DNA of 64,000 nucleotides from Polytrichum commune (lineage: Eukaryota > Streptophyta > Polytrichopsida > Polytrichales > Polytrichaceae). The notes under the pieces were generated by a model that was given only the letters and a program-made list of their open reading frames with translations, did not search any database and had not been told where the DNA came from. The stretch is taken from positions 8,432,001-8,496,000 of the forward strand of contig OX485809.1 in the NCBI GenBank assembly GCA_950295325.1, given 5' to 3'. Positions 4,519 to 17,126 of this stretch are shown piece after piece. Numbering within the stretch: the stretch's first letter is position 1; every line of letters begins with the position of its first letter. Position numbers and translations under genes: made by a program.

Positions 4519-5394
4519 AGCCGAATCGAGTCTACGAAGCTGCTGGAAGGCGATTGCATTACGAAGAACCTGCCCCAAGAGCCCAGATACCTGCTGTTGC
4601 AGAGAGTTTTTTGAAGAAATCTGCTGCCAAGACAGAAGTTGCTGCTGCCGAAACAGAAGGTGCTGGTGTATTAAGGCAAGGAGATTGAAGGCAAAGTGTT
4701 GCTGCTGGAGTTGTTGGTGACTGTCATTTTGCTGCCCTTCATCCGCTTGGTAAGTTTACACGTTAATTTGTTTTCTCATTATTTGCACATAGGCACACTG
4801 TGAGGCCAAAACCACCCCCCTTAGGCGTCCTAGTCCGGGTGATGGTGTTGAGAATCACATGTATTGTTCGTATCAAAAGAATGATCTCTTTGCATCCCAA
4901 GGCATACATGTCATTTTGAATCACTTTGTTTATTAGTAGTGACCTCTTGGCTTGTGACCGAATTGGCCTTCTCAAGAGTCCAACCGGCAGCCTTGGCAAC
5001 ACAAGCTCTCAAGGATATTCTCCTTGCGCCTTTGATTATCCTCTCCTTCACCTTGCCAATGCTAGAGTCCTCCTCCCTCTCCATTGTTATATAAGTGATT
5101 GATTTTTTTACCAACAAGGATGTAAGTGTTGAAAAACACTCCCTCAATGGTTAACCTCAAATATAGTTGCTTGTAAAAACCCCACACCCTCCTAGCTATC
5201 TAACCACACAACTCACACATTGACTAATTTCATTAAGTCCTCTCCCTAAGTCCTAATTCTAAGTCACCCACATCACTCATTAGTTGATGGTTTCACTAGC
5301 TTAATCTCCAACTAATTCTTAGATATCCTAATCCTAGCTCGGCTCGGTACACCCTTGATCTGGTGGTAACTTTGGTTGAACACATAGCCCCTTA

Positions 5395-5692
5395 GTCTGC
5401 TGCCCCACCGGTAAGATTAGTCTGATGGGCAGAGCCTAGGATAATGGCACTAAGGTTTGGCCAAGTAAGCTTGTCTGTTGCCCAACCGGTAAGCTCGTCT
5501 GCTGGCCCGACCGGTAAGCTAGTCTGCTGCCCAGCCGGTAAGCTTGTCTGCTGCCCAACCGTAAGCTTAGTCTGCTGCCCAGCCGGTAAGCTCGTCTGCT
5601 GGCCCAACCGGTAAGCTAGTCTGCTGGCCCAACCGTAAGCTTAGTCTGATGGGCAGAGCCTAGTATATTTGCACTAAGGTTTGGCCAAGCTC
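5395..5692. repeat. 24-25 bp minisatellite flanked by a direct repeat
   Basis: One unit at 5395-5419 and seven at 5473-5643 follow the pattern GTCTGCTGCCCAACCGGTAAG plus three to four bases. A roughly 50-bp segment beginning gtctgatgggcagagcctag and ending in ttggccaag occurs both between unit 1 and the rest (5420-5472) and after the last unit (5644-5692). The array therefore lies between two copies of a longer, clearly related repeat. There is no coding potential. Confidence 0.9.
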
Positions 5693-5856
5693 ATTAATGG
5701 CCCTAACTTAACACACAAATTAGGAGGCTACCTAAAGGGATTTCAAACTACAAACTAATTTGGTGACCCTACCCTCTAATCAAATACTTTTCTACTTGGT
5801 CTCTATGATTTGGAATAAGTAACTAAACTAACTCCCTAACATCACTAAGGCTAACT

Positions 5857-6010
5857 AATCCACACATGTGGCTTTTAAGCTATAAGAGCTTACTCCCATG
5901 GGATGAATTGAGAGAGAGAGCTTAACTAACTAACTTCACTAGAAAACTAACAATCCACACACGTGGCTCAAGCTCTTAGGAGCTTGCTCCCTTGAGAGCG
6001 TTTGATGGAG
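5857..6010. repeat. Imperfect direct duplication of about 45 bp
   Basis: The segment aatccacacatgtggc...gagcttactccc (about 5857-5897) recurs as aatccacacacgtggc...gagcttgctccc (about 5949-5990), separated by a GA-rich spacer. GA-rich low-complexity sequence continues to about 6080. The rest of 5700-6500 shows no gene. Confidence 0.7.
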
Positions 6011-6502
6011 AGAGAGGAAAATGAGAGAGAAAACACCTTAAGTAGCAAAAAGGGAGAGAGGGGGAGAGGGAGAGAAAGGTGAGGATAGGGTGAGAGGATT
6101 AGCACCTCCAATCATAATCCCTTAACCTTCACCTTCAAAGTAGGGACTAATCCCCTTCCACCAAGCTTCCTTCTTCCTAAACTAACAAGATGGATCCAAA
6201 AGTGGGCATTTAACCCGCGGAGCTCACCTTGCCTCACCTTACCCCTTACTCACATAATCAAGGCATTTTCCTATTGAAATCAACCCTTGAAATAACCACA
6301 CAACACATTCTAATGCCTAAACTTAAATCCACACCACACTTCACTTTTTTTATGTTTTGTGAATAATCATAACACCTCAAAGTCAAACTAAAATTGGTTT
6401 CGAAGAGTTAATCACCACATGTGGGCACCATTTTGGGCTCACACACACACATAGTCTTAGACACATCATAGCATTGATAGGTTTGTTAGGATAGTAAGCA
6501 AA

Positions 6503-7255
6503 ATGAAGGTTGCATATGCAACCTACCTTGTTATCATTATGTGGCTAGTACTAGCCACACCATACTGGATATACTCTCATAGTGTCAACTCTCACACCAC
6601 ATGGGAATGCCTTACAAACTCTTGTTTTAAAAACACATATAAGAACGTCATAAATCCAAAGGTATGGTATAACAACCTTAATGTTCATATCATAAATGAA
6701 TGTTCCATTAGAAATAATGGATCCGTGGTAGTAACGGTAGATGCTTGTGCTTTTAGTTATACTTGCCTCAAATGCTTAGGAGATGTATGGAATGTTAGAG
6801 TTGTGACAAATCATAATCTACATAAGAGCACTTACAACCAATTTGTAAATACTAAGATTCATATGAATAGGAAAAGGTGTTATCATAGGATGAATGCAAG
6901 TTGTACTCATACTAGTACTCATATGATGTTAGAACATGCAAATCACTTCTTCTTTCACTCTCAATTCCTAGGAGGCCCACAACTTAATTTGTGGAAAGGA
7001 ATTAGAGGAAAGAAAATAAGAAGTATACCTCATTCAAAACTAAAGTACAAAACGTTTGTTTGCTTTGCTTATATCAGAATGGCAACCATCACTCCAACCT
7101 CATCATCACGTAAGTTGTTTGAAAATGAAAATATAGATTCTACAAATGGAAAACGTCCAGTGCTTGCTGTGGTATTGTCAAGTCAAAAAAAGGTTAAAGG
7201 AATAGCACCCACTGAGAGAACACGCCCCCCTATTGGCTTGGTTTTCAAGCTATGA
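6503..7255 (+). CDS. Open frame upstream of LINE ORF1, uncertain
   Basis: A 250-codon frame is open here, but its first two thirds (Cys, His and Asn rich, no domain seen) look like non-coding sequence that happens to be open. The last 59 codons, from the ATG at 7079, look more protein-like (Ser/Lys/Pro rich). Its TGA overlaps the ORF1 start as ATGA (7252-7255). Either 7079-7255 is the authentic start of ORF1 separated by one frameshift, or the two frames are translated by termination-reinitiation. I recognise no function. Confidence 0.3.
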   Translation: MKVAYATYLVIIMWLVLATPYWIYSHSVNSHTTWECLTNSCFKNTYKNVINPKVWYNNLNVHIINECSIRNNGSVVVTVDACAFSYTCLKCLGDVWNVRVVTNHNLHKSTYNQFVNTKIHMNRKRCYHRMNASCTHTSTHMMLEHANHFFFHSQFLGGPQLNLWKGIRGKKIRSIPHSKLKYKTFVCFAYIRMATITPTSSSRKLFENENIDSTNGKRPVLAVVLSSQKKVKGIAPTERTRPPIGLVFKL

Positions 7256-8697
7256 ACACAATTGCAAAATTTGCCAGCATGCCTCTCATTCAAACACCTT
7301 CTTTCACTGAGTTAGTCAAAAAAGGTATGTGTGAGTCTGAAGCACATGAAATGGTAGAGTCATCTCCCTCCTTTCCGTTCGTTGCCCAAGAAGAGTGGCC
7401 TTCTAAACGAACGGATGGTAAGGAGGGAATGCACTACAATCTCACCCAGATTCCTTCAGATGTGAAAATGGGTGACCATGGATTTGCTTTGGACTATCAC
7501 ATATCTATCCATTTTGAAATTGAAAGAATAGAATTTGATAGAGATGTGATACTCAACTTAACAAATGATAGACTAAAAACAATGAGGATAGAGGTCGGGG
7601 AAGTCCTAGGAGAGCCCATAGCTGTCCTTTGTTTTCATGGGACCAAAAGATGGAGTGGAATTATTAAACTCCACCTTAAAAACCCTGAAATGGATGGATA
7701 TGGCCTTCTCTGTGGATTGAGACCTTTCATCCTCAAGCTTGGCCGATTTACACATGTTATAGGCAAAGTGTGTAAATCCTTTGATACCATTGCAATTGCA
7801 TCCATGCTCTCCGTCAAAGTCACAACCCCATCAATCAAGGGTAAAGAATGGTATGATTTGTTTGTAGAAATAGTTGGGGATGAATTTCGACGAGGCCTTG
7901 ACTTTGAAATAACGAATGTGCAAAAATCGGCGGATGCAGAATTTGCTTGGATTAAATCACCTTCTCCAGAGGAAGCCAAAAGAATTAAAGCACTCAAACT
8001 TTCGTTTTTCAATGAAATAGTAGATGTAAACTTTGCAAGTAACGAAAAACTCTCAGAAGATGATAAAGCCCGAAAGAATGCACTCATTCTAATTGCCCGT
8101 AACCTCAACAAGGTAAAAACAACCATGCAAATCGAAGAAGGAATCCGAAAATGCATGGGAGAACTAAATGTTATCGGTTTTTACTTTAGACTTGAGAACG
8201 GGAAGCACACGGGCTCATGCAATGCCCAATGCCTCAACTCGTTTGTCTACAAGAAATTTGTTAAGAAAAATGAAAAAATATTTGGTAAATATGTTGAATT
8301 TACCCCCCATCCAAAAAGTCTAGACGGGATAAATGCACCTAGTAAAGAAGAGCTAGTTAGACTTGGATTTTTAAACGTGAACACCGCACTTGCAAACACC
8401 ATCCAAGCTCTAGAGAATGGACCGTACCAAAACATCACCAATAAAGATCTCAACAAGATGGTAGAAGCAGCAGTAAAAAAATGGACGGATGAAATACGAA
8501 AGGAAATGGTGAACCTTAAAGGTGAGATTGTGCAAGAGGCAAAGGTTTATGCCGACCATGTGGAAGCGGAGTCAAACAAGAATTCCAAGCTCCAAATACA
8601 ACTCCTTCAAAGGCAAATGAAGATTACATTGGATGCTATCGAAGCGGCTCATCCGGACATATCGGAAATTGAAAACAATATGGACTTGATAAACTAA
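7252..8697 (+). CDS. LINE ORF1, Gag-like protein with C-terminal coiled coil
   Basis: This intact 481-codon frame lies directly upstream of the LINE ORF2. The N-terminal half contains an RRM-like stretch (around residues 115-180, with WSGIIKLHL and GLRPFILKLG). A central segment (about residues 285-370) contains GKHTGSCNAQCLN and FTPHPKSLDG. The last 90 residues (about 395-475) are rich in Lys, Glu and Ala with heptad-like spacing and should form a coiled coil, as in the trimerising region of L1-type ORF1 proteins. The expected role is binding of LINE RNA in a ribonucleoprotein; this is inferred from position and layout. There is no CCHC knuckle. The ATG at 7252 overlaps the preceding stop as ATGA. 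Its base composition (17 G in 60 at 7861-7920) differs sharply from ORF2. Confidence 0.6.
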   Translation: MNTIAKFASMPLIQTPSFTELVKKGMCESEAHEMVESSPSFPFVAQEEWPSKRTDGKEGMHYNLTQIPSDVKMGDHGFALDYHISIHFEIERIEFDRDVILNLTNDRLKTMRIEVGEVLGEPIAVLCFHGTKRWSGIIKLHLKNPEMDGYGLLCGLRPFILKLGRFTHVIGKVCKSFDTIAIASMLSVKVTTPSIKGKEWYDLFVEIVGDEFRRGLDFEITNVQKSADAEFAWIKSPSPEEAKRIKALKLSFFNEIVDVNFASNEKLSEDDKARKNALILIARNLNKVKTTMQIEEGIRKCMGELNVIGFYFRLENGKHTGSCNAQCLNSFVYKKFVKKNEKIFGKYVEFTPHPKSLDGINAPSKEELVRLGFLNVNTALANTIQALENGPYQNITNKDLNKMVEAAVKKWTDEIRKEMVNLKGEIVQEAKVYADHVEAESNKNSKLQIQLLQRQMKITLDAIEAAHPDISEIENNMDLIN

Positions 8698-9218
8698 TTT
8701 CGACAAACATCCCGGCGGCGTACAATTATAACTTACTTATAGTATATTTATATACTAAAAACAAAAACATAATTAAATTATTAATATATACTAAAAATAA
8801 AACCCTACCTATAGTATTCATGAATACTATAACATCAAAAATTCACAAAGAAAACCCCCCCAACACCTCACAAAAATAAATCTATTTACTCACAATACAA
8901 CAATATCCTATCCAATACAACAAAGTACACAATACGGCCTCGCCACAAAATAAAACTAACAAGATATATACACTACCACTCCCTCAACCCCATCATTAAC
9001 ACAATCACAAAGCCTACCCACCAACATACTAAACCTATACACTACCTCCCAAAACTACACAAAAAACAATAATTGCCCTATCTAATCTATTTACAAAAAG
9101 TAAATATAAACTACTCACCTTAAATAAGCAATACCTCAATATCAAACACCATCACAAACCCTATTTCAAACACCTATTAAACCCTCATTCAAAATACCAA
9201 CCTCACCCAAAAGATACA
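8698..9218 (+). other. LINE inter-ORF spacer
   Basis: This is a stretch of A, C and T with almost no G, and no reading frame. It begins with inverted tatagtat/atactata words around 8735-8830. The change in composition happens here, within about 50 bp of the ORF1 stop. Confidence 0.6.
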
Positions 9219-11333
9219 ATGGCCTCGGCCTACCGGCCTCGCCACACAAATAATAACACATACCACTTCATAAATAACTGGAGACCTAACTCAATAACAA
9301 GCCAAAAATCTATAAAAAATACAAACTCACACTTCTCACCCAAACAAATAGAAGACATCATACCCGCTATACCTAACCTCTTTACTACAACCAAGTTCAC
9401 AATCATAATATATCTTAAAACAAACATGAAAAATCCAAAAACACTCCATTCCCACGGATACTACTTTATTAACAAACTAGAATTGCTAAAATGCGGGGAC
9501 ATAGAACCCAACCCCGGACCAATGCCTAACATCCTACATACACACCCTGCTACACACAAAAAAAGAGCCAACATCTATTTCATTCCAAACATTATAAAAC
9601 TACAACCTGAATACCAACACATAACAAACACATTTGCCCCCATACTAAAAAACACACACCCACTACACCCTCAAGCAATAACCACATATCCGCATCTACA
9701 TCAATATATCCAAACACAAAGGCAATCACCACTAACCCATATGCTATATGCTCTAATCATCACCATCCACCCCTCAATAGACACATGCAATAGCATACTA
9801 GCCAAACCCCAAAATTACCACTTTAATAACATATGGACGAACACATTGATTATCAGACTGGCCAACCTCACCAACCCCCCCGAAAGGCATATATCAACAC
9901 CTCACCCCTACACAACTTTTGTAGAAAACAATCAAGATATAATATACCCAAAAAATTCAATACACACAGAGATATATGAATTTATCTACAACCAAGATAC
10001 TGCACCAACACCAATCACCCTTCAAAATAAATTTTCCTTCCTCCCAAATCAATTGATCACCGAAGCACTCCGATGCCTAGAAAGCATCAACGTATATTCA
10101 CACCCACCCCCACCCCCAGCTACTCCCACACCAATCCCAAGAATTAACACCGACACCGAGCACGAAACAAACATAATAACATGGAATGCATCATCACTCA
10201 ACACATCATTACTAAACCTACAAAGCCTAATAAACAACTCGCTAAACAACACAGCAATCATACATATCCAAGAAACCAAACTAACTGCAAATAAATCTAC
10301 AAAATACATACAAAACCTATTTCCGGAATTTAAACTCATTTTCAACAACACACATGCACTCACAAGATGCATACAACAAAGAATGCCTTATACCCCCGGA
10401 GGAGGAGGCTTACTCACACTTATCCACAAAAAATATGCATTCCCTGGGAATATCACCAAAATTCTCACGCCAGTAAATATATTCCCATACCTACAAATAA
10501 TTAAAATAAACAACCATCCACTAATACCTAGGCTAATCATACACATGTACATGCCTACACACTTAGAAGATACATGCCTCATTCCACACCTTAAGAACGA
10601 AATCACTAACGAAATCACTATACACCCCAATCACATGTATACATTATGTGGGGACTTTAACCGAGATATCGCACTTAGAGGCAGACAAAATAACAACATT
10701 AACACCCCTCCACAAGAAGAAGATTACCAATGGAAAATTATCACCGCATCACTCAACCTAGAATATATCCCAACTAACACTAGCATCTCCAGACAAGGAG
10801 GCTATAATTACAAATCAATAAGTCTAATAGATGGATTCTACATTCACTCACCAGACAACAACAAATTCATTTCTACCACAAACACAAACATGAATCTAAA
10901 CTCAAACCATTATCCAGTTGTACTACATATCCCTCACAACACCCTTATAGCCAGATCCCCACCCCCCACAAACACGTCACCAACTAGAATACTAAACCCA
11001 ATACCACCAAAAAACATCGAAAAATTCAACATAACATTCTTCGAAGAAAACTCTGCACAAATAAAAGCTCTTACCACCCTACTCGAAAGCCACCAACACT
11101 TAAGCCCGGATCAATGGGCGGAAGCCTATACAACATTCGACCACATTGTATATAAAATTTCAGAAACAATTGAAGAAACCTGTAAAGTAGATTCACTACC
11201 TAACCTTACGAACAGAATATCACAACAAGGTGGGTTTTTGCCACGCAAACTTGCGAGAAATTGGAAAAGACGCCTCAATACATATCACCTCCTCAGGAAA
11301 ATCATATACATTGCACAACACAATCCACTCTAG
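9219..11333 (+). pseudogene. LINE ORF2, N-terminal part: 2A-like peptide and APE-type endonuclease
   Basis: The first 705 codons of ORF2 start at ATG 9219. Residues 89-101 read LLKCGDIEPNPGP, a 2A-like ribosome-skipping signature. An exonuclease-endonuclease-phosphatase fold spans about residues 315-570: TWNASS (about 320), IQETKL, a Gly-rich GGGGLL stretch, CGDFNRD (G478-D479-F480-N481), SLIDGFY, and a terminal SNHYPV (562-567). The usual form of the last motif is SDH, so the catalytic Asp appears as Asn (AAC at 10905-10907), which should cripple the enzyme. The frame closes at a TAG (11331-11333), but coding sequence resumes in the same frame, so this is a nonsense mutation and not the natural end. 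In intact relatives the enzyme nicks target DNA to prime reverse transcription. Confidence 0.75.
9483..9521 (+). other. 2A-like ribosome-skipping peptide within LINE ORF2
   Basis: The encoded LLKCGDIEPNPGP fits the 2A core D-(V/I)-E-x-N-P-G-P, preceded by the usual hydrophobic LL. The expected skip falls between Gly100 and Pro101 (codons 9516-9518 and 9519-9521) and would release a 100-residue N-terminal peptide from the rest of ORF2. The residue after the Pro is Met. Similar motifs are known near the N-termini of ORF2 or a single ORF in some animal and trypanosomatid LINEs. Confidence 0.75.
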
Positions 11334-13651
11334 CAAGCACACCCCATCCTAAACGATATACGAAACCACCAACACACAAACATCCCACTCCCACCTGTTA
11401 CAACGGCACCTCCTACTGAATGGATTGATGCCATAGCAACCATCGCAAAAAATGCAAATAAAGAAGCCAAAAAAATCACCACAAAATACACCAAAGACTG
11501 CATTCTAAAGGCCGTATCAAAATACCGTCAAATGTATGACAAAAAGCCCCAAAAAAATAAATCGAAAAGTCTTCAAGAACACTGAAACCTCACCCCTGGA
11601 CTCCATCATTGATAGACAAAACAATATATTAACTAACCCAGAAGACATCGCAGCAGAAATATACACGCAACAATCCATCAGTAACCGTCCTACAGTTCCT
11701 ACATGTCAATATCAAAATACACACCCACTACATTGCACATGTGGAGTCCGGCAATACCTATGGCATGACTTAGACGGATACATCATTGACAAACGAGGAG
11801 AACCCCAAACCCCCCTACACACGTATTTTGACCAAGAAATATACGATTTTTGTCTTAAAAACCTAAATAATAACAAAACCCCAGGCCCAGATAAAATACC
11901 CAATTCAATTCTAAAAAATATGCCCCCACGCTTCCATAAATTACTCTTCTTATTTTTTAAACATTGTTATAAACAAAAATAAATCCATGCATCATAGAAA
12001 ACCAGTCTAACAGTTTTACTATACAAAAAGGTAACCCATCACAACTAACAAACCATAGACCTATTGCACTAGCTAACACCATATATAAATTATATACGAG
12101 TACATTAACTTCTATCATATCAGCGTATGGAGAAAAATACCAAATATTACACGATAGTGAAGAAGGGTTTAGAGCAAAGAGAAGCACTTCTAGACAAATT
12201 CAATTACTAATCGCAGCGCTTGAAGATGCAAGACTCACGAACCAAGATATATATATTCTTTATATTGACTTCAAAAACGCCTTCGGCTCCATTGATCACG
12301 CCAGACTTTTAGCCATAATTAAAGATCTGAGATATTCCACTGACTCCATAAATCTCATAGGAAACATATATTCACAATCCTCAACAATATTCACTGGTGA
12401 ACACTTCGGTAAAACCTTACCAAAGAGGTACAAATATAAGGTGATACCCTTAGTCCATATCTATTTATCATATTCCTAAAACCCCTCCTCAGATGGCTAC
12501 AACAAAGGAATAATGGATACACTTTTGGTACATCTAAAATTAAAATCTCATCAGCAGCATATGTAGATGACCTAGCAGCAATCGCCAATAAACTAGAGAC
12601 ACTACAAACACAACTCAACAAACTAGACAAATTCTACGAATGGGCAGGAATGGATCTTGGAATACCCAAGTGCGCAATAACTGGATGCCCAAACAAATCC
12701 AAACTTCACCCCACAACCTTCAAAGTCCTAATCCAATCTACCAATATTAACTACAGAAACCAACCTATACCAATCTTAAACCAACATGAACCATACACGT
12801 ATCTAAGAATAAATCTTGCACCATCACTCAAATGGAAAACACAAATAAATACCACTACAGCTAAAGTAATAAAATAATGTCAAGCCCTTATAACATGCCC
12901 AGCTACTATGAAACAAAAAATAAACATGGCAAATACAGTCATACGTGCTGGAATAGCATATAGCTTCTACGCAGTATCATACTCCATACCAGCTATCACA
13001 AAACTCGATAAAAAAATCATAGCATTTCACAAAACGATATGCGGAATACCCAAATGCACATCTAACATCGCTACACAACTCCCACACAATCTATTCGGAA
13101 TCGAAGCATTCTCACTACAAAATGCCTATTTAAGATGCATTGGAGAACAACTACAAAACGCCCTCAATGATAAAGGTAGAATTGGGAAAATATATGTTGG
13201 TCTACTTCAATTCATACTCGCCAAATATGGGGGTTCTAAGAAAATCACCCGCATTAAATACCACCACTGTGTTAGATCACCCATCTCTAGAACATTATTC
13301 TTGCTCAAACATAAAGCCGGAGTCCACCTAAAAAGTACAATAAACAATTTCCTACTAATCCCATCCCCACTTGCAACTGCATGGATGCAGGAAGCACAAA
13401 TGCTTCATGGCCTAAATCCCAACACCTCACTTAAATTACTATACAAACTACTTGTACATAATATAATCATACTAGACCAAATTACCATGCCTAATGGTAC
13501 CACTCTAATGAACCCGGACGAATTCAAAATCTACCACTCCACTCCTTCTAAACTTATCAAAAACGCACTTAACATAGCTAATCATTTTGCCACCCCCCTT
13601 ATAATCAATGCCCCCTACTATGCCAACAACACCATCCACCAAGATCCCTAA
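11334..13651 (+). pseudogene. LINE ORF2, reverse transcriptase part, frameshifted
   Basis: Pieces in several frames join into one RT. NNKTPGPDKIPNSIL is RT motif 0/1 (about 11865-11910). LTNHRPIALANT is motif 2 (about 12040-12080). Motif A is YIDFKNAFGSIDH, with its catalytic Asp at 12267-12269. GDTLSPYLF is motif B (about 12440). YVDD at 12560-12571 is motif C, with the two other catalytic Asp. Thumb-like sequence continues to about 13650. Breaks: stop at 11331, frameshifts near 11560, 11980 and 12435, in-frame TAA at 12875-12877, and a final stop plus frameshift near 13650. The catalytic Asp codons survive although the frame does not. 13652-13758 is a C-rich low-complexity joint. Confidence 0.8.
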
Positions 13652-13758
13652 AAAATAAATATATAATAAGACACCACAATATCCTACCACACCCACCAAC
13701 CGCCCCCGTACACCCCCCTAACCTCCTCATCCCCCCTCTACCCCCTCCTCCCAACAAC

Positions 13759-15348
13759 ATGCTTAAAGACCCCCGACAATTCCCCATACACAAAATAATC
13801 GATCATAAACAAAAACAATCCAATGACCACAACGGAATAAAAAGAACAGTCGCGTCGTACTTATGTCAATGGACTACAACAAATAACAACACATATAACA
13901 AATGGCGAACTCAAAGGGACCTATACCCCTGCTGTGAAGCCAACACATGTAATCACAACACAGACCTACTTATCCATTACTACAAAGAAAGACAACACAA
14001 ACATTTTTCAAACATAATTAATGCCTACTTCTCCACAGAACAACATAGAGACACAAGATACGTCACACCAACCACAATAATTCCACTAGCACATATCTCT
14101 ATTAATGAATGCAACCCAGAAAACGACATCGAAACAAACTCTGATACCATCCAAACACAATTCGATGTCGCTCACATATACGAAGACAATGGCCGACACC
14201 TCATTACCATCCCAAAAGCTAGACTAAGATGGCTATGGAAACAATACCAATTGGCAAAAAACAACACACACGGTCTAGAACCATCTACCCAATCGTTCGA
14301 AACTGAAATTGTTTGGTTATACCAAAGGTACAAATACCGTATCCCAAAAAATGACCCACTCAAACGAGCCCAATATACAATACCAACCCAAATATTAGAT
14401 CTCCTGATTACAACATTCAATATTGACCACTCATATTTTTCATCCCCAGTTACATGCTCCACACAATTCACCCAATTCTACTCACCATTCTCGCGAGACA
14501 TAATATTTGGATCCCTGGGTAAAGCGTTTGACCATAAATGGCAAGGAATCGGTTACGCACACCCTCATAATACAACAGACCTACAACAAGTTATTCACTG
14601 GGCGCGCATAGCGGCCCAAAATGATCCATATACAATCACTATACTTATATCTCCGGATACTAATTGGTATCAAAACTCCAACCCACACACAGGCCCATTC
14701 CCAGACACACACGTCATTGCCCATTTCGCCGTTGATACGATCACGTATGAGGAACCCACGATACCCCCCGAGCTCAATATCACAAGAAAAGAACCATCTA
14801 CCATGCAAATATTTTGTATCCATCACCAAAACAATAACATAGGCACCTACGAACAAATGAAATTAATAAACGACACAGCAAATAACCTCCAAATACTACA
14901 AAGTCACACACAAACTGCACCACCCACCCCTCCAAACATCACCGTTAACCCTAGTAAAAAATGGGCCAAATCAAACTACCCAAATACAATCCCACACAAT
15001 AATACCCCTACCCCACAACTTCCAAACTACCACACTAATCTACCGCTAAAATTCCACCCCCAATTCAGCTACTACACGGATGGTTTCTTTATAAAACCCA
15101 AAGAAATTGCCCCTGGGGAATGGAGAAGAGAAAGAGCTGGATACGGTATCTACAGCCCCAAAGGCTTAAATATCGCCAAAAGACTCCATGGGCATCAAAA
15201 CATACTACGCGCAGAAATGATGGCTATACACAAAACACTAAGAATCATCAATACACAATTTCCTAATGAACCCGCATTCATATTCACAGACAGTCTAAAC
15301 GTACTATTCTTACTCAACACACAAAATCAAACACCCCACTCTCCATAA
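13759..15348 (+). pseudogene. LINE ORF2, linker with possible Dam-like domain and RNase H N-terminal part
   Basis: This 529-codon open segment lies between RT and the C-terminal domains. An early Cys/His cluster (CCEANTCNHN, about 13930-13962) could bind zinc. About 14365-14760 resembles a Dam-like adenine methyltransferase fold. RNase H begins near 15070 with YTDG (first catalytic Asp), LRAEMMAI (Glu, about 15207) and FTDSLNVL (Asp, about 15286). The frame closes at TAA 15346-15348 through a frameshift, since the RNase H C-terminus continues downstream in another frame. RNase H would remove the RNA strand from the cDNA hybrid. Confidence 0.7.
14365..14760 (+). other. Possible Dam-like DNA adenine methyltransferase domain in LINE ORF2
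   Basis: The order of short motifs resembles phage-type Dam enzymes as I remember them: YTIPTQILDLL near the start (compare W-x-TP-x-x-ilD), FNIDHSYFSSP (compare the F-x-l-D-x-x-a segment), FYSPF followed by a D and FGS, KWQGIGYAHPHN (14557-14571 encodes AHPHN, where the family has an NPPY-type motif), an amphipathic helix ending in WARIAAQ, then the strand TITILISPDTNWYQ (compare vvLvPa-t-x-W). The NPPY motif is not conserved, so it may be inactive or only a structural relative. This is inference from pattern memory. Confidence 0.35.
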
Positions 15349-15793
15349 TAGCCACCCAGACCAAACCACACTCAACTCCATGGTAAAAATCCTTTAAAAC
15401 CGTACACAACCAATCACACTATACAAAGTTAGAGCACATGTTAACATTGACGGTAATGAAAAAGCAGATAAACTAGCAAAAGAAGGGTTAGAATTAGAAC
15501 ATAGAATTGCCATCCACCCATACGAACATGCCCACGCCACCCCGTACTATTATCAAAAAGACGTCTGGGCCTCGATGGCAGACGTCCCAGATAAAAGCCC
15601 AGTAAGATTCCTAGAAAAACAAATTAAAAAATACGATAGGGAAACCAATATAGCAATCATGGCCACACAAACCCCCAACACGTGTAAATCGACAGAAAAT
15701 ATAGACATAGACAAAGAAATGTCAAACGAATTCTGGACAAATCCCTCAATCACCGACAAACAAAAATCATGTCTTATTAAATTCCGCACATGA
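15349..15793 (+). pseudogene. LINE ORF2, RNase H C-terminus and linker
   Basis: After the frameshift, VRAHVNIDGNEKADKLAKEG (about 15431-15490) supplies the last RNase H motif, with the His and the final Asp of the usual H-x5-N-x2-A-D pattern. A hydrophilic linker follows from 15575. It ends at an in-frame TGA (15791-15793), and coding continues in the same frame at 15800, so this is a nonsense mutation, possibly TGG to TGA. Confidence 0.7.
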
Positions 15794-15799
15794 ACATAC

Positions 15800-16531
15800 A
15801 TGGGTAATGCTAGAAAACAAATGTTCTTCGGCCACCAAAGATACCCCTCTATTACGTGCCCCATATGCAATTCAAACGAACCAGACACCTGGCTACATGT
15901 ACTACTTAAATGTAAACAACAACATATACACTCACTTAGAGTTAAAAGACATAACAAAGCAGTCGGAGAAATTAGGAAGCTCCTAATCTCGTCCAAAAAA
16001 TCCCGATGCTTTACTCTCATGAATGCCGGTACCTTCAATAATAATCCCCAAGAAAACACTGTCCCAAACTGGCTACTCCCCTGCACATGTAACACACAAA
16101 GATGTCACTGCAACGCAAGATTTCGACCTGATATACTTTGCGTTAAAGGGTTACCGTATCAAAATGACCCTCCCATTGACATTGACCCTAACCTCACCAT
16201 ACAATTTATTGAATTCACATACTGCAACGATAGATTCTCCCCAGAAACAATAGAAGCAAAAATCAACAAATACAAACCATTAATTGATAGTATCGCTTCC
16301 AAAGGATGGAAAATCGAACCACTTATTGTCATCACAGCCAGGGCCCGAGCTACGACCCACATCCCATCTATGAAAATACTAGAGAACAACCTCAGAATAC
16401 CCATGGTTACCATCAAAAATACCTTTAAAAACATTAATACCATTGCAATACAATATGCCATGTCCATCCTCCTTCATAAAAGGAGGATCGAAAACCACCA
16501 ACCGCTCCCCCAAAATTTAGACCCTCCATAA
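15800..16531 (+). pseudogene. LINE ORF2, CCHC knuckle and restriction-like endonuclease (RLE)
   Basis: This 243-codon C-terminal segment starts with CPICNSNEPDTWLHVLLKC (C-x2-C-x9-H-x4-C, from 15857), followed by RVKRHNKAV, the layout found ahead of the endonuclease in R2-type LINEs. A PD-(D/E)XK-type core follows: RPDIL (Asp at 16130-16132), FIEFTYC (Glu at 16211-16213), and a helix with AKINKYKPL that could carry the displaced catalytic Lys. The hydrophobic strand EPLIVITARA and a helical tail complete it. With the APE domain at the other end of ORF2 this makes a dual-endonuclease element. The frame is intact within this segment. Confidence 0.65.
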
Positions 16532-16977
16532 AACTCAAAAACTTATATAATATTTAATAACTATATACAGCTCAGGATGAGGGATTGGTGCCGGTTGGTT
16601 GGTACAAATTTCCTGCCTTTTACTCATTTGCAGCACCAAGTCATGTGTTACACATTAGGCGATCAAACGGACCCAACATGAATCGGACCCGGACCGTCTT
16701 AACCCAAACATCCTCACACAACCAACCGAGGAATCATGACTTGGCGTACACCCTTACAACAAAACCACTAGCTATACTTAAAAGGCATACACCCCCGTGG
16801 GCCATGATGGGCCCGTGTTATTTGTTCCCTGGCTACTATAGTGTCCATCCTCGAAAGAGGAGAGTAGTTTTGTCCCAGCTTCCCCATGTCCTGTGGACAT
16901 CGGGTTGTTGGCATTACGAACGGACACTCTATTCACGCTGGCCCCTCAAAGGGACCGGAGTTTCTATCTATCTATCT
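16532..16977 (+). other. Probable LINE 3' UTR ending in a TCTA tandem tail
   Basis: Right after the ORF2 stop the composition returns to normal, with GC-rich, possibly structured words (cggacccggaccg, ggccatgatgggcccg). It ends in TCTATCTATCTATCT at 16963-16977. Many LINEs without poly(A) end in short tandem repeats, which is why I place the 3' end here. A shorter end near 16575 is possible. Confidence 0.35.
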
Positions 16978-17126
16978 CACATTCCATCAACCCTTTCTTA
17001 AAACTAAGATTTTGTGAGTTTTACCTCCAAGGAATAAGGACAACCTTACCTAATCTCAAGAGATGCAAAAATGAGTTTGGTACCCAATGAACCAATATGG
17101 AATGTTCTTCGTTCAAACCTCCACAT

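Follow-up and report, generated by a model that had tools for sequence, protein, structure and literature searches.

Organization of the element in the window

The window analyzed in this work is a stretch of 64,000 nucleotides from Polytrichum commune (contig OX485809.1 of assembly GCA_950295325.1, positions 8,432,001 to 8,496,000, forward strand). It very probably holds a decayed copy of a long interspersed nuclear element (LINE) of the Dualen/RandI type, which is abundant in the host genome and has two open reading frames (ORFs). ORF2 carries an apurinic/apyrimidinic-type endonuclease (APE), a reverse transcriptase (RT), a domain similar to the cap methyltransferase PCIF1/CAPAM, a ribonuclease H (RNase H), a CCHC knuckle and a restriction-like endonuclease (RLE). 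Relatives were retrieved from the same genome (407.8 Mb) by a search with the C-terminal 243 residues, which gave at least 150 scored matches from 5,405 rough candidates. Copies A to E are the five of these scored matches whose open frames are longest, chosen without regard to the PCIF1-like domain. Eight more divergent loci, L019 to L026, were taken from a genome search with Pfam PCIF1_WW (150 scored, 697 candidates) and are therefore selected for that domain. The features of the element in the window are as follows:

4652–4798, forward strand: piece of the 5' region, separated from the rest by an insertion; 88% identity to copy B, and 94% to copies A and C over 4677–4798; the lower limit is an alignment edge, not an established 5' end.
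4799–6443, no strand assigned: insertion into the 5' region, about 1.6 kb long, seen as an alignment break and not present in copies A, B and C; it holds a minisatellite at 5465–5652.
6503–8697, forward strand: ORF1, with one frame-breaking indel near 7250 and a possibly RNA recognition motif (RRM)-like second half.
8820–16531, forward strand: ORF2, dead; start placed at the position homologous to copy A's first ATG.
9221–9245, forward strand: GC-rich DNA motif with a predicted small hairpin.
9477–9521, forward strand: 2A-like peptide LELLKCGDIEPNPGP, with ribosome skipping predicted between G and P.
10170–10938, forward strand: APE endonuclease, with SNH in this copy in place of SDH.
11857–12760, forward strand: RT in three frames (Pfam RVT_1), with YVDD in this copy.
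14248–14580, forward strand: PCIF1/CAPAM-like domain, with HPHN (14560–14571) in place of the NPPF of PCIF1.
15070–15490, forward strand: RNase H in two frames, matched as two weak pieces.
15857–15913, forward strand: CCHC knuckle C-x2-C-x9-H-x4-C, from the sequence and the aligned copies.
15980–16460, forward strand: RLE, from motifs, alignment and predicted fold; CxC-x4-CxC at 16082–16111, RPD at 16124–16132, E at 16212–16214 and K-x2-K at 16259–16270.
16964–16977, forward strand: 3' end of the element, with a short (CTAT)n tail like those of copies A to E.

The copy in the window is dead, its domains being spread over different frames with no single translated frame joining the motifs. Compared with copy A, nine frame-breaking indels and eight in-register stops were counted in ORF2 (96.2% identity over 7,698 aligned bases) and one frame-breaking indel in ORF1. 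The APE lies in the frame 9219–11333, the RT pieces in three frames, the RNase H across two, and the knuckle and the RLE together in 15800–16531. Identity to copies A, B and C was 95.3–95.5% from 6444 to about 16977, and similarity resumes at 4652/4677–4798, on the other side of the insertion. The initial annotation had read a single ORF2 from 10169, a description that fits the intact copies, where one open ORF2 carries the motifs, but not the broken window copy, where the frame opening at 10169 closes inside the APE. Homology with copy A moves the start about 1.35 kb upstream, to 8820, and an ORF1 precedes it. The motifs that had been reported were found where they had been placed: CGDFNRD of the APE at 10647–10667, the knuckle, and the RPD, E and K residues of the C-terminal domain. 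ORF1, the 2A-like site, the PCIF1-like domain and the dead state of the copy had been overlooked. A marked strand asymmetry was also observed over 8000–17000, the coding strand of the LINE being rich in A and C.

Open copies and family history

A single open ORF2 frame of 2,625–2,924 codons was found in each of the five copies A to E. In copies A, B and C, the open frame of ORF1 spans 747 codons and that of ORF2 2,625 codons. The three are 98.7–99.2% identical to one another in ORF2 and 99.0–99.1% in DNA; since they are about 99% identical, the family was recently active. A second subfamily consists of D and E, which share 99.7% identity over 13.3 kb and are 88.7–88.8% identical to copies A to C over 2,473 ORF2 residues. 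The motifs from the APE through the RLE were checked and found within one open ORF2 in A, E and the partial locus L019.

The similarity of copy A to B and C begins about 1.2–1.3 kb later than that between B and C, and copy A is therefore probably truncated at its 5' end. At the DNA level, A and E are similar only from a point within ORF2 onward, and the ORF1 of E is 29% identical to that of the window. As D and E share ORF2 with A at 88.7% identity but differ almost completely in the 5' module, this module, which bears ORF1, was probably exchanged between the two subfamilies. No relatives of the family were detected in scans of a viral contig set and a genome contig set.

Enzymatic domains of ORF2

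On the established assignment of defining motifs to each enzyme, the APE motif set was complete in A, E and L019, and these three sequences also share the YADD of the RT, the RNase H residues, the CCHC knuckle, CxC-x4-CxC, and the PD, E and K of the RLE. Pfam Exo_endo_phos matched L019 with 25.5 bits (cut-off 24.5), and the APE of the window copy gave no Pfam match. RVT_1 was matched by two pieces of the window (5.7e-12 and 5.6e-4) and by copy A (1.5e-30), and RNase_H by copy A (1.3e-14) and L019 (1.4e-14). A cysteine protease, a domain of the Chlamydomonas Dualen that is not known to be defining, had no match when pieces of ORF1 and ORF2 were scanned with Pfam, a scan that a divergent one might escape. 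In pairwise comparison, as a measure of similarity and not of phylogeny, the RT scored 110–111 bits with three R2 sequences, of which two are almost the same, 74 and 70 bits with two Bombyx-type R2, and about 65 bits with human L1. As a control, the RT of an L1 element from the same genome scored 158–163 bits with human L1 and 47–60 bits with R2.

The C-terminal domain had been proposed to be a nuclease of the PD-(D/E)XK type, to be checked by structure prediction, and the check came out in favor of this. In the RLE alignment, the D and the E were invariant in all 10 rows, the P was kept in 9 of 10, and both K residues were present in the 9 rows that reach them. A structure was modeled with AlphaFold2 from this ten-row alignment. 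The mean predicted local distance difference test (pLDDT) score was 59.3, compared with 37–44 for the other four models; block means were 66–90 at residues 131–160 and 201–330, and 46–56 over the knuckle. A Foldseek search of the PDB with this model returned only four matches at E ≤ 0.001, all of them R2 proteins (9dou, 9nl2, 8gh6 and 8ibz; E 3.4e-5 to 2.9e-4), from Taeniopygia, Platysternon and Bombyx, the organism of 8ibz not being stated. Among the 46 further rows listed, 33 were endonucleases or polymerases of segmented negative-strand viruses (E 0.07 or worse), whose endonucleases are of the PD-(D/E)XK type. With the RLE profile, copies A and E, both members of the RLE alignment, scored 665 and 660 bits, and the profile of the PCIF1-like domain also gave strong hits on them. 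Neither profile matched two ordinary L1 ORF2 sequences of the same genome, taken as frames that lack the final 339 and 74 codons (E 0.12 or worse). Fold and motif thus support the identification of the C-terminal domain as an RLE, and the presence of APE, RLE and RNase H in one LINE ORF2, as first described, was borne out on the intact copies by Pfam, motifs and predicted fold.

Selection on the domains was estimated from pairwise ratios of nonsynonymous to synonymous substitution rates (dN/dS, Nei-Gojobori) in two comparisons, A–E and A–L019, the RLE of L019 being compared over 116 codons, where the locus ends. The respective values were 0.08 and 0.15 for the APE, 0.06 and 0.06 for the RT, 0.10 and 0.11 for the PCIF1-like domain, 0.05 and 0.17 for the RNase H, and 0.13 and 0.12 for the RLE. 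Purifying selection on these five domains is thus shown at the sequence level, as an average over past divergence rather than as activity of the present copies. The N-terminal leader of ORF2 gave 0.64 and 0.58.

These values bear on whether both endonucleases work. Only one might do so, the RLE surviving as a vestigial DNA-binding or structural domain while the APE cuts, or the reverse; the knuckle and parts of the RLE of R2 also bind DNA, and the RLE went unrecognised by sequence searches. We regard this as unlikely, as the D and E of the RLE are invariant, the APE motifs are complete in A, E and L019, and the dN/dS of both nucleases lies between 0.08 and 0.15. The reading with two working nucleases is kept below.

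PCIF1-like domain

The Pfam family PCIF1_WW (cut-off 31.1 bits) was matched by the window (43.3 bits, E 3.9e-11), copy A (43.5, 3.3e-11), copy E (41.6, 1.3e-10) and L019 (47, 2.8e-12). PCIF1 structures were also found, weakly, when a profile of the domain (A2) was compared with the PDB (6irv and 6irx, E 0.006–0.007). About 100 residues that precede the active site of PCIF1 align with the ORF2 domain. The NPPF motif, which has a catalytic role in PCIF1, is replaced at this site by HPHN, HPPN, HPNN or HPHT in all ten aligned sequences (AHP, then H, P or N, then N or T). The Pfam match stops just short of this motif in A and E and continues beyond it in L019. The family has been described as a misannotated CAPAM-like methyltransferase (PMC7641849). 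Among the papers listed in literature searches, which in one case were 15 of 1,867, none concerned a fusion between PCIF1/CAPAM and a retrotransposon, although such a paper may exist.

Because NPPF is lost and the preceding region kept, RNA binding is likelier than methylation. The domain thus appears catalytically altered, and binding of RNA, perhaps at capped 5' ends, is more likely its role. The contrary possibility, an active methyltransferase that marks the RNA of the element, draws on the similarity above the Pfam cut-off in several families, the dN/dS of about 0.1 and the extent of the L019 match. The replaced NPPF in ten sequences and the end of the A and E matches just before it argue the other way, and we consider such an activity improbable.

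Between the RT and the PCIF1-like domain, residues 1704–1790 of the copy A ORF2 (about 13765–14030 in the window) are predicted to form three strands and a helix and contain YLCQW. A chromodomain was considered for this stretch. Pfam Chromo remained under its cut-off, with E ≤ 1 in two of seven members, a PDB search gave no match, and the 50 Foldseek rows listed contained no chromodomain. The profile score of 17.0 exceeded that of every one of 50 shuffles, the best of which reached 15.4; two overlapping slices taken from the PCIF1-like alignment scored higher, at 18.4–18.6. The dN/dS was 0.05 for A–E and 0.61 for A–L019. A chromodomain is therefore kept as a lead and not established, as the profile failed to exceed the neighboring PCIF1-like slices.

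ORF1, leader and 2A-like site

ORF1 is related across families, with 29–67% identity to the ORF1 of the window, and had no Pfam match above cut-off. An ORF1 profile (A6) gave a weak similarity to nucleolin (E 0.0039–0.033), and the second half of the protein is possibly RRM-like. The ORF1 of the window subfamily opens with a hydrophobic, signal-like stretch (MKVAYATYLVIIMWLVLATPYW, 6503–6600), which seems unusual in a LINE.

The motif D-I-x-x-N-P-G-P occurs once in each of ten sequences (the window, A to E and L019 to L022), which are not independent, as the window and A to C belong to one subfamily and D and E to another. The E of the 2A motif, defined as D(V/I)ExNPGP (PMC4981915), is kept in seven of them (the window, A, B, C, L019, L021 and L022). 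2A-like sequences occur in other non-long terminal repeat elements (PMC4981915, PMC12846837), and ribosome skipping is predicted here. The leader upstream of the site is weakly conserved (28% identity between A and L019), and stops lie just upstream of the motif in L020 and L022.

Of 12 sequences searched, 10 carry a GC-rich motif of 25 bases upstream of the 2A-like site, in one to three copies: besides the window, at 2773 in L019, at 1731, 2001 and 2445 in L020, at 572 in L021 and at 1210 in L022. It was not found in L025 and L026, which start further downstream. It is read in differing protein frames, and a small hairpin is predicted for it, with z about −2.5 in the three sequences tested.

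Insertion and proposed mechanism

The (CTAT)n 3' tail is present in all five copies A to E, whose flanks differ. Copies C and D are flanked by target-site duplications, of 12 bp in C and of 11 bp in D, where a few additional bases precede the element. Elsewhere in the window, a 220-bp tandem repeat in four copies lies at 136–1024.

A course of replication may be proposed from the domain content. ORF1 would package the RNA, perhaps via RRM-like domains, and a ribosomal skip at the 2A-like site would separate a leader of some 235 residues from the enzyme proper, about 2,340 residues long. Insertion would proceed by target-primed reverse transcription, with the first strand cut by one endonuclease, probably the APE, and the second by the other, probably the RLE together with the CCHC knuckle. 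The RNase H would remove the RNA, and the PCIF1-like domain would bind RNA, perhaps at capped 5' ends.

Classification and comparison with known elements

Dualen encodes both APE and RLE, and RNase H occurs in Dualen/RandI (PMC4640811, PMC3636483). The Polytrichum element likewise has an APE upstream of the RT, an RLE downstream of it, by fold and motif, and an RNase H, so that the Dualen/RandI-type interpretation first put forward is supported by architecture. Its 3' tail is also a short repeat and not poly-A (PMC3747384), (CTAT)n here as against (ATT)n or (CTATTT)n. The element differs further in its land-plant host and possibly in its additional PCIF1-like domain and 2A-like site. The gene content agrees with such a host: six exon matches to the LEAFY DNA-binding family (best 9.0e-53) and 42 Dirigent matches were found in the genome, LEAFY being known only from streptophytes and Dirigent only from land plants. 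A plastid rbcL, followed by a reading frame taken for accD, has land-plant rubiscos as its best PDB matches, by a modest margin over those of Chlamydomonas (scores of 1,080 for the best against 1,026). Dualen is reported from Chlamydomonas and relatives (PMC8226300), Dualen/RandI is listed under protists, as green algae (PMC4438587), and LINE/Dualen has been counted in cryptophytes (PMC12747079).

R2 resembles the element in RT score, predicted C-terminal RLE fold and CCHC knuckle. It differs in having the RLE as its sole endonuclease, no APE or RNase H, a single ORF and a site in 28S rDNA, whereas the Polytrichum copies have differing flanks and carry an APE. Plant L1, which occurs in the same genome, shares APE and RT; it has a zf-RVT in place of the knuckle and RLE, and an RT far nearer to human L1. 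The L1 group, with APE as sole endonuclease and a poly-A tail, is unlike the element, which has an RLE and a (CTAT)n tail. The PCIF1/CAPAM cap adenosine methyltransferase shows the PCIF1_WW similarity ahead of its active site and differs in its NPPF motif, replaced in all ten LINE sequences, and in that the LINE domain sits inside a retrotransposon ORF2.

An R2-like or L1-like LINE might instead have gained its second endonuclease independently of Dualen. The RT scores, nearer to R2 than to L1, point in that direction, as does a review describing plant LINEs as L1 and RTE only (PMC9033089), although Repbase may contain land-plant Dualen entries. Two gains of the order APE-RT-RNase H-RLE are, however, less simple than descent from the sole group described with it, and independent gain is given a low probability.

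Several findings weigh against the Dualen/RandI-type reading or parts of it. Membership of the clade is judged from architecture. The APE of copy A stayed under the Pfam cut-off (Exo_endo_phos_2, 1.8e-4). For the RLE, the PDB yielded no match either to phmmer or to a profile search, the confidence of the model is moderate and falls to pLDDT 36–58 at residues 161–200, which include the CxC cysteines and the PD, and the query TM-scores of the R2 matches are only 0.31–0.36, with root-mean-square deviations of 8–17. The model of the PCIF1-like domain is poor (mean pLDDT 44.1) and gave no Foldseek match at E ≤ 0.001. At the 2A-like site, the E is replaced by K (D and E) or H (L020) in three of ten sequences, and skipping is predicted from the motif itself. 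Synonymous divergence between A and L019 is near saturation (dS 0.9–2.0), no target-site duplication of at least 6 bp was found in A, B and E, leaving two copies of five with one, and the division of labor between APE and RLE is conjectural.

With the Dualen/RandI-type reading retained, a wider scenario can be put forward tentatively, and with more doubt than confidence: land plants may hold a lineage of Dualen-type LINEs that captured a domain derived from a cap methyltransferase, since changed in its catalytic site and recognizing the capped 5' end of the element's own RNA, with a 2A site splitting ORF2 and two endonucleases sharing the strand cuts. Such an arrangement would represent a new route by which a LINE favors full-length insertion.

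These results extend the dual-endonuclease LINEs to a land plant, Polytrichum commune. Dualen has served as an argument for the origin of APE LINEs by replacement of an RLE (PMC4640811). As this plant family was recently active and both of its nucleases have been under selection, the role of each nuclease becomes testable. The PCIF1-like domain is a lead on how LINEs may handle RNA 5' ends.

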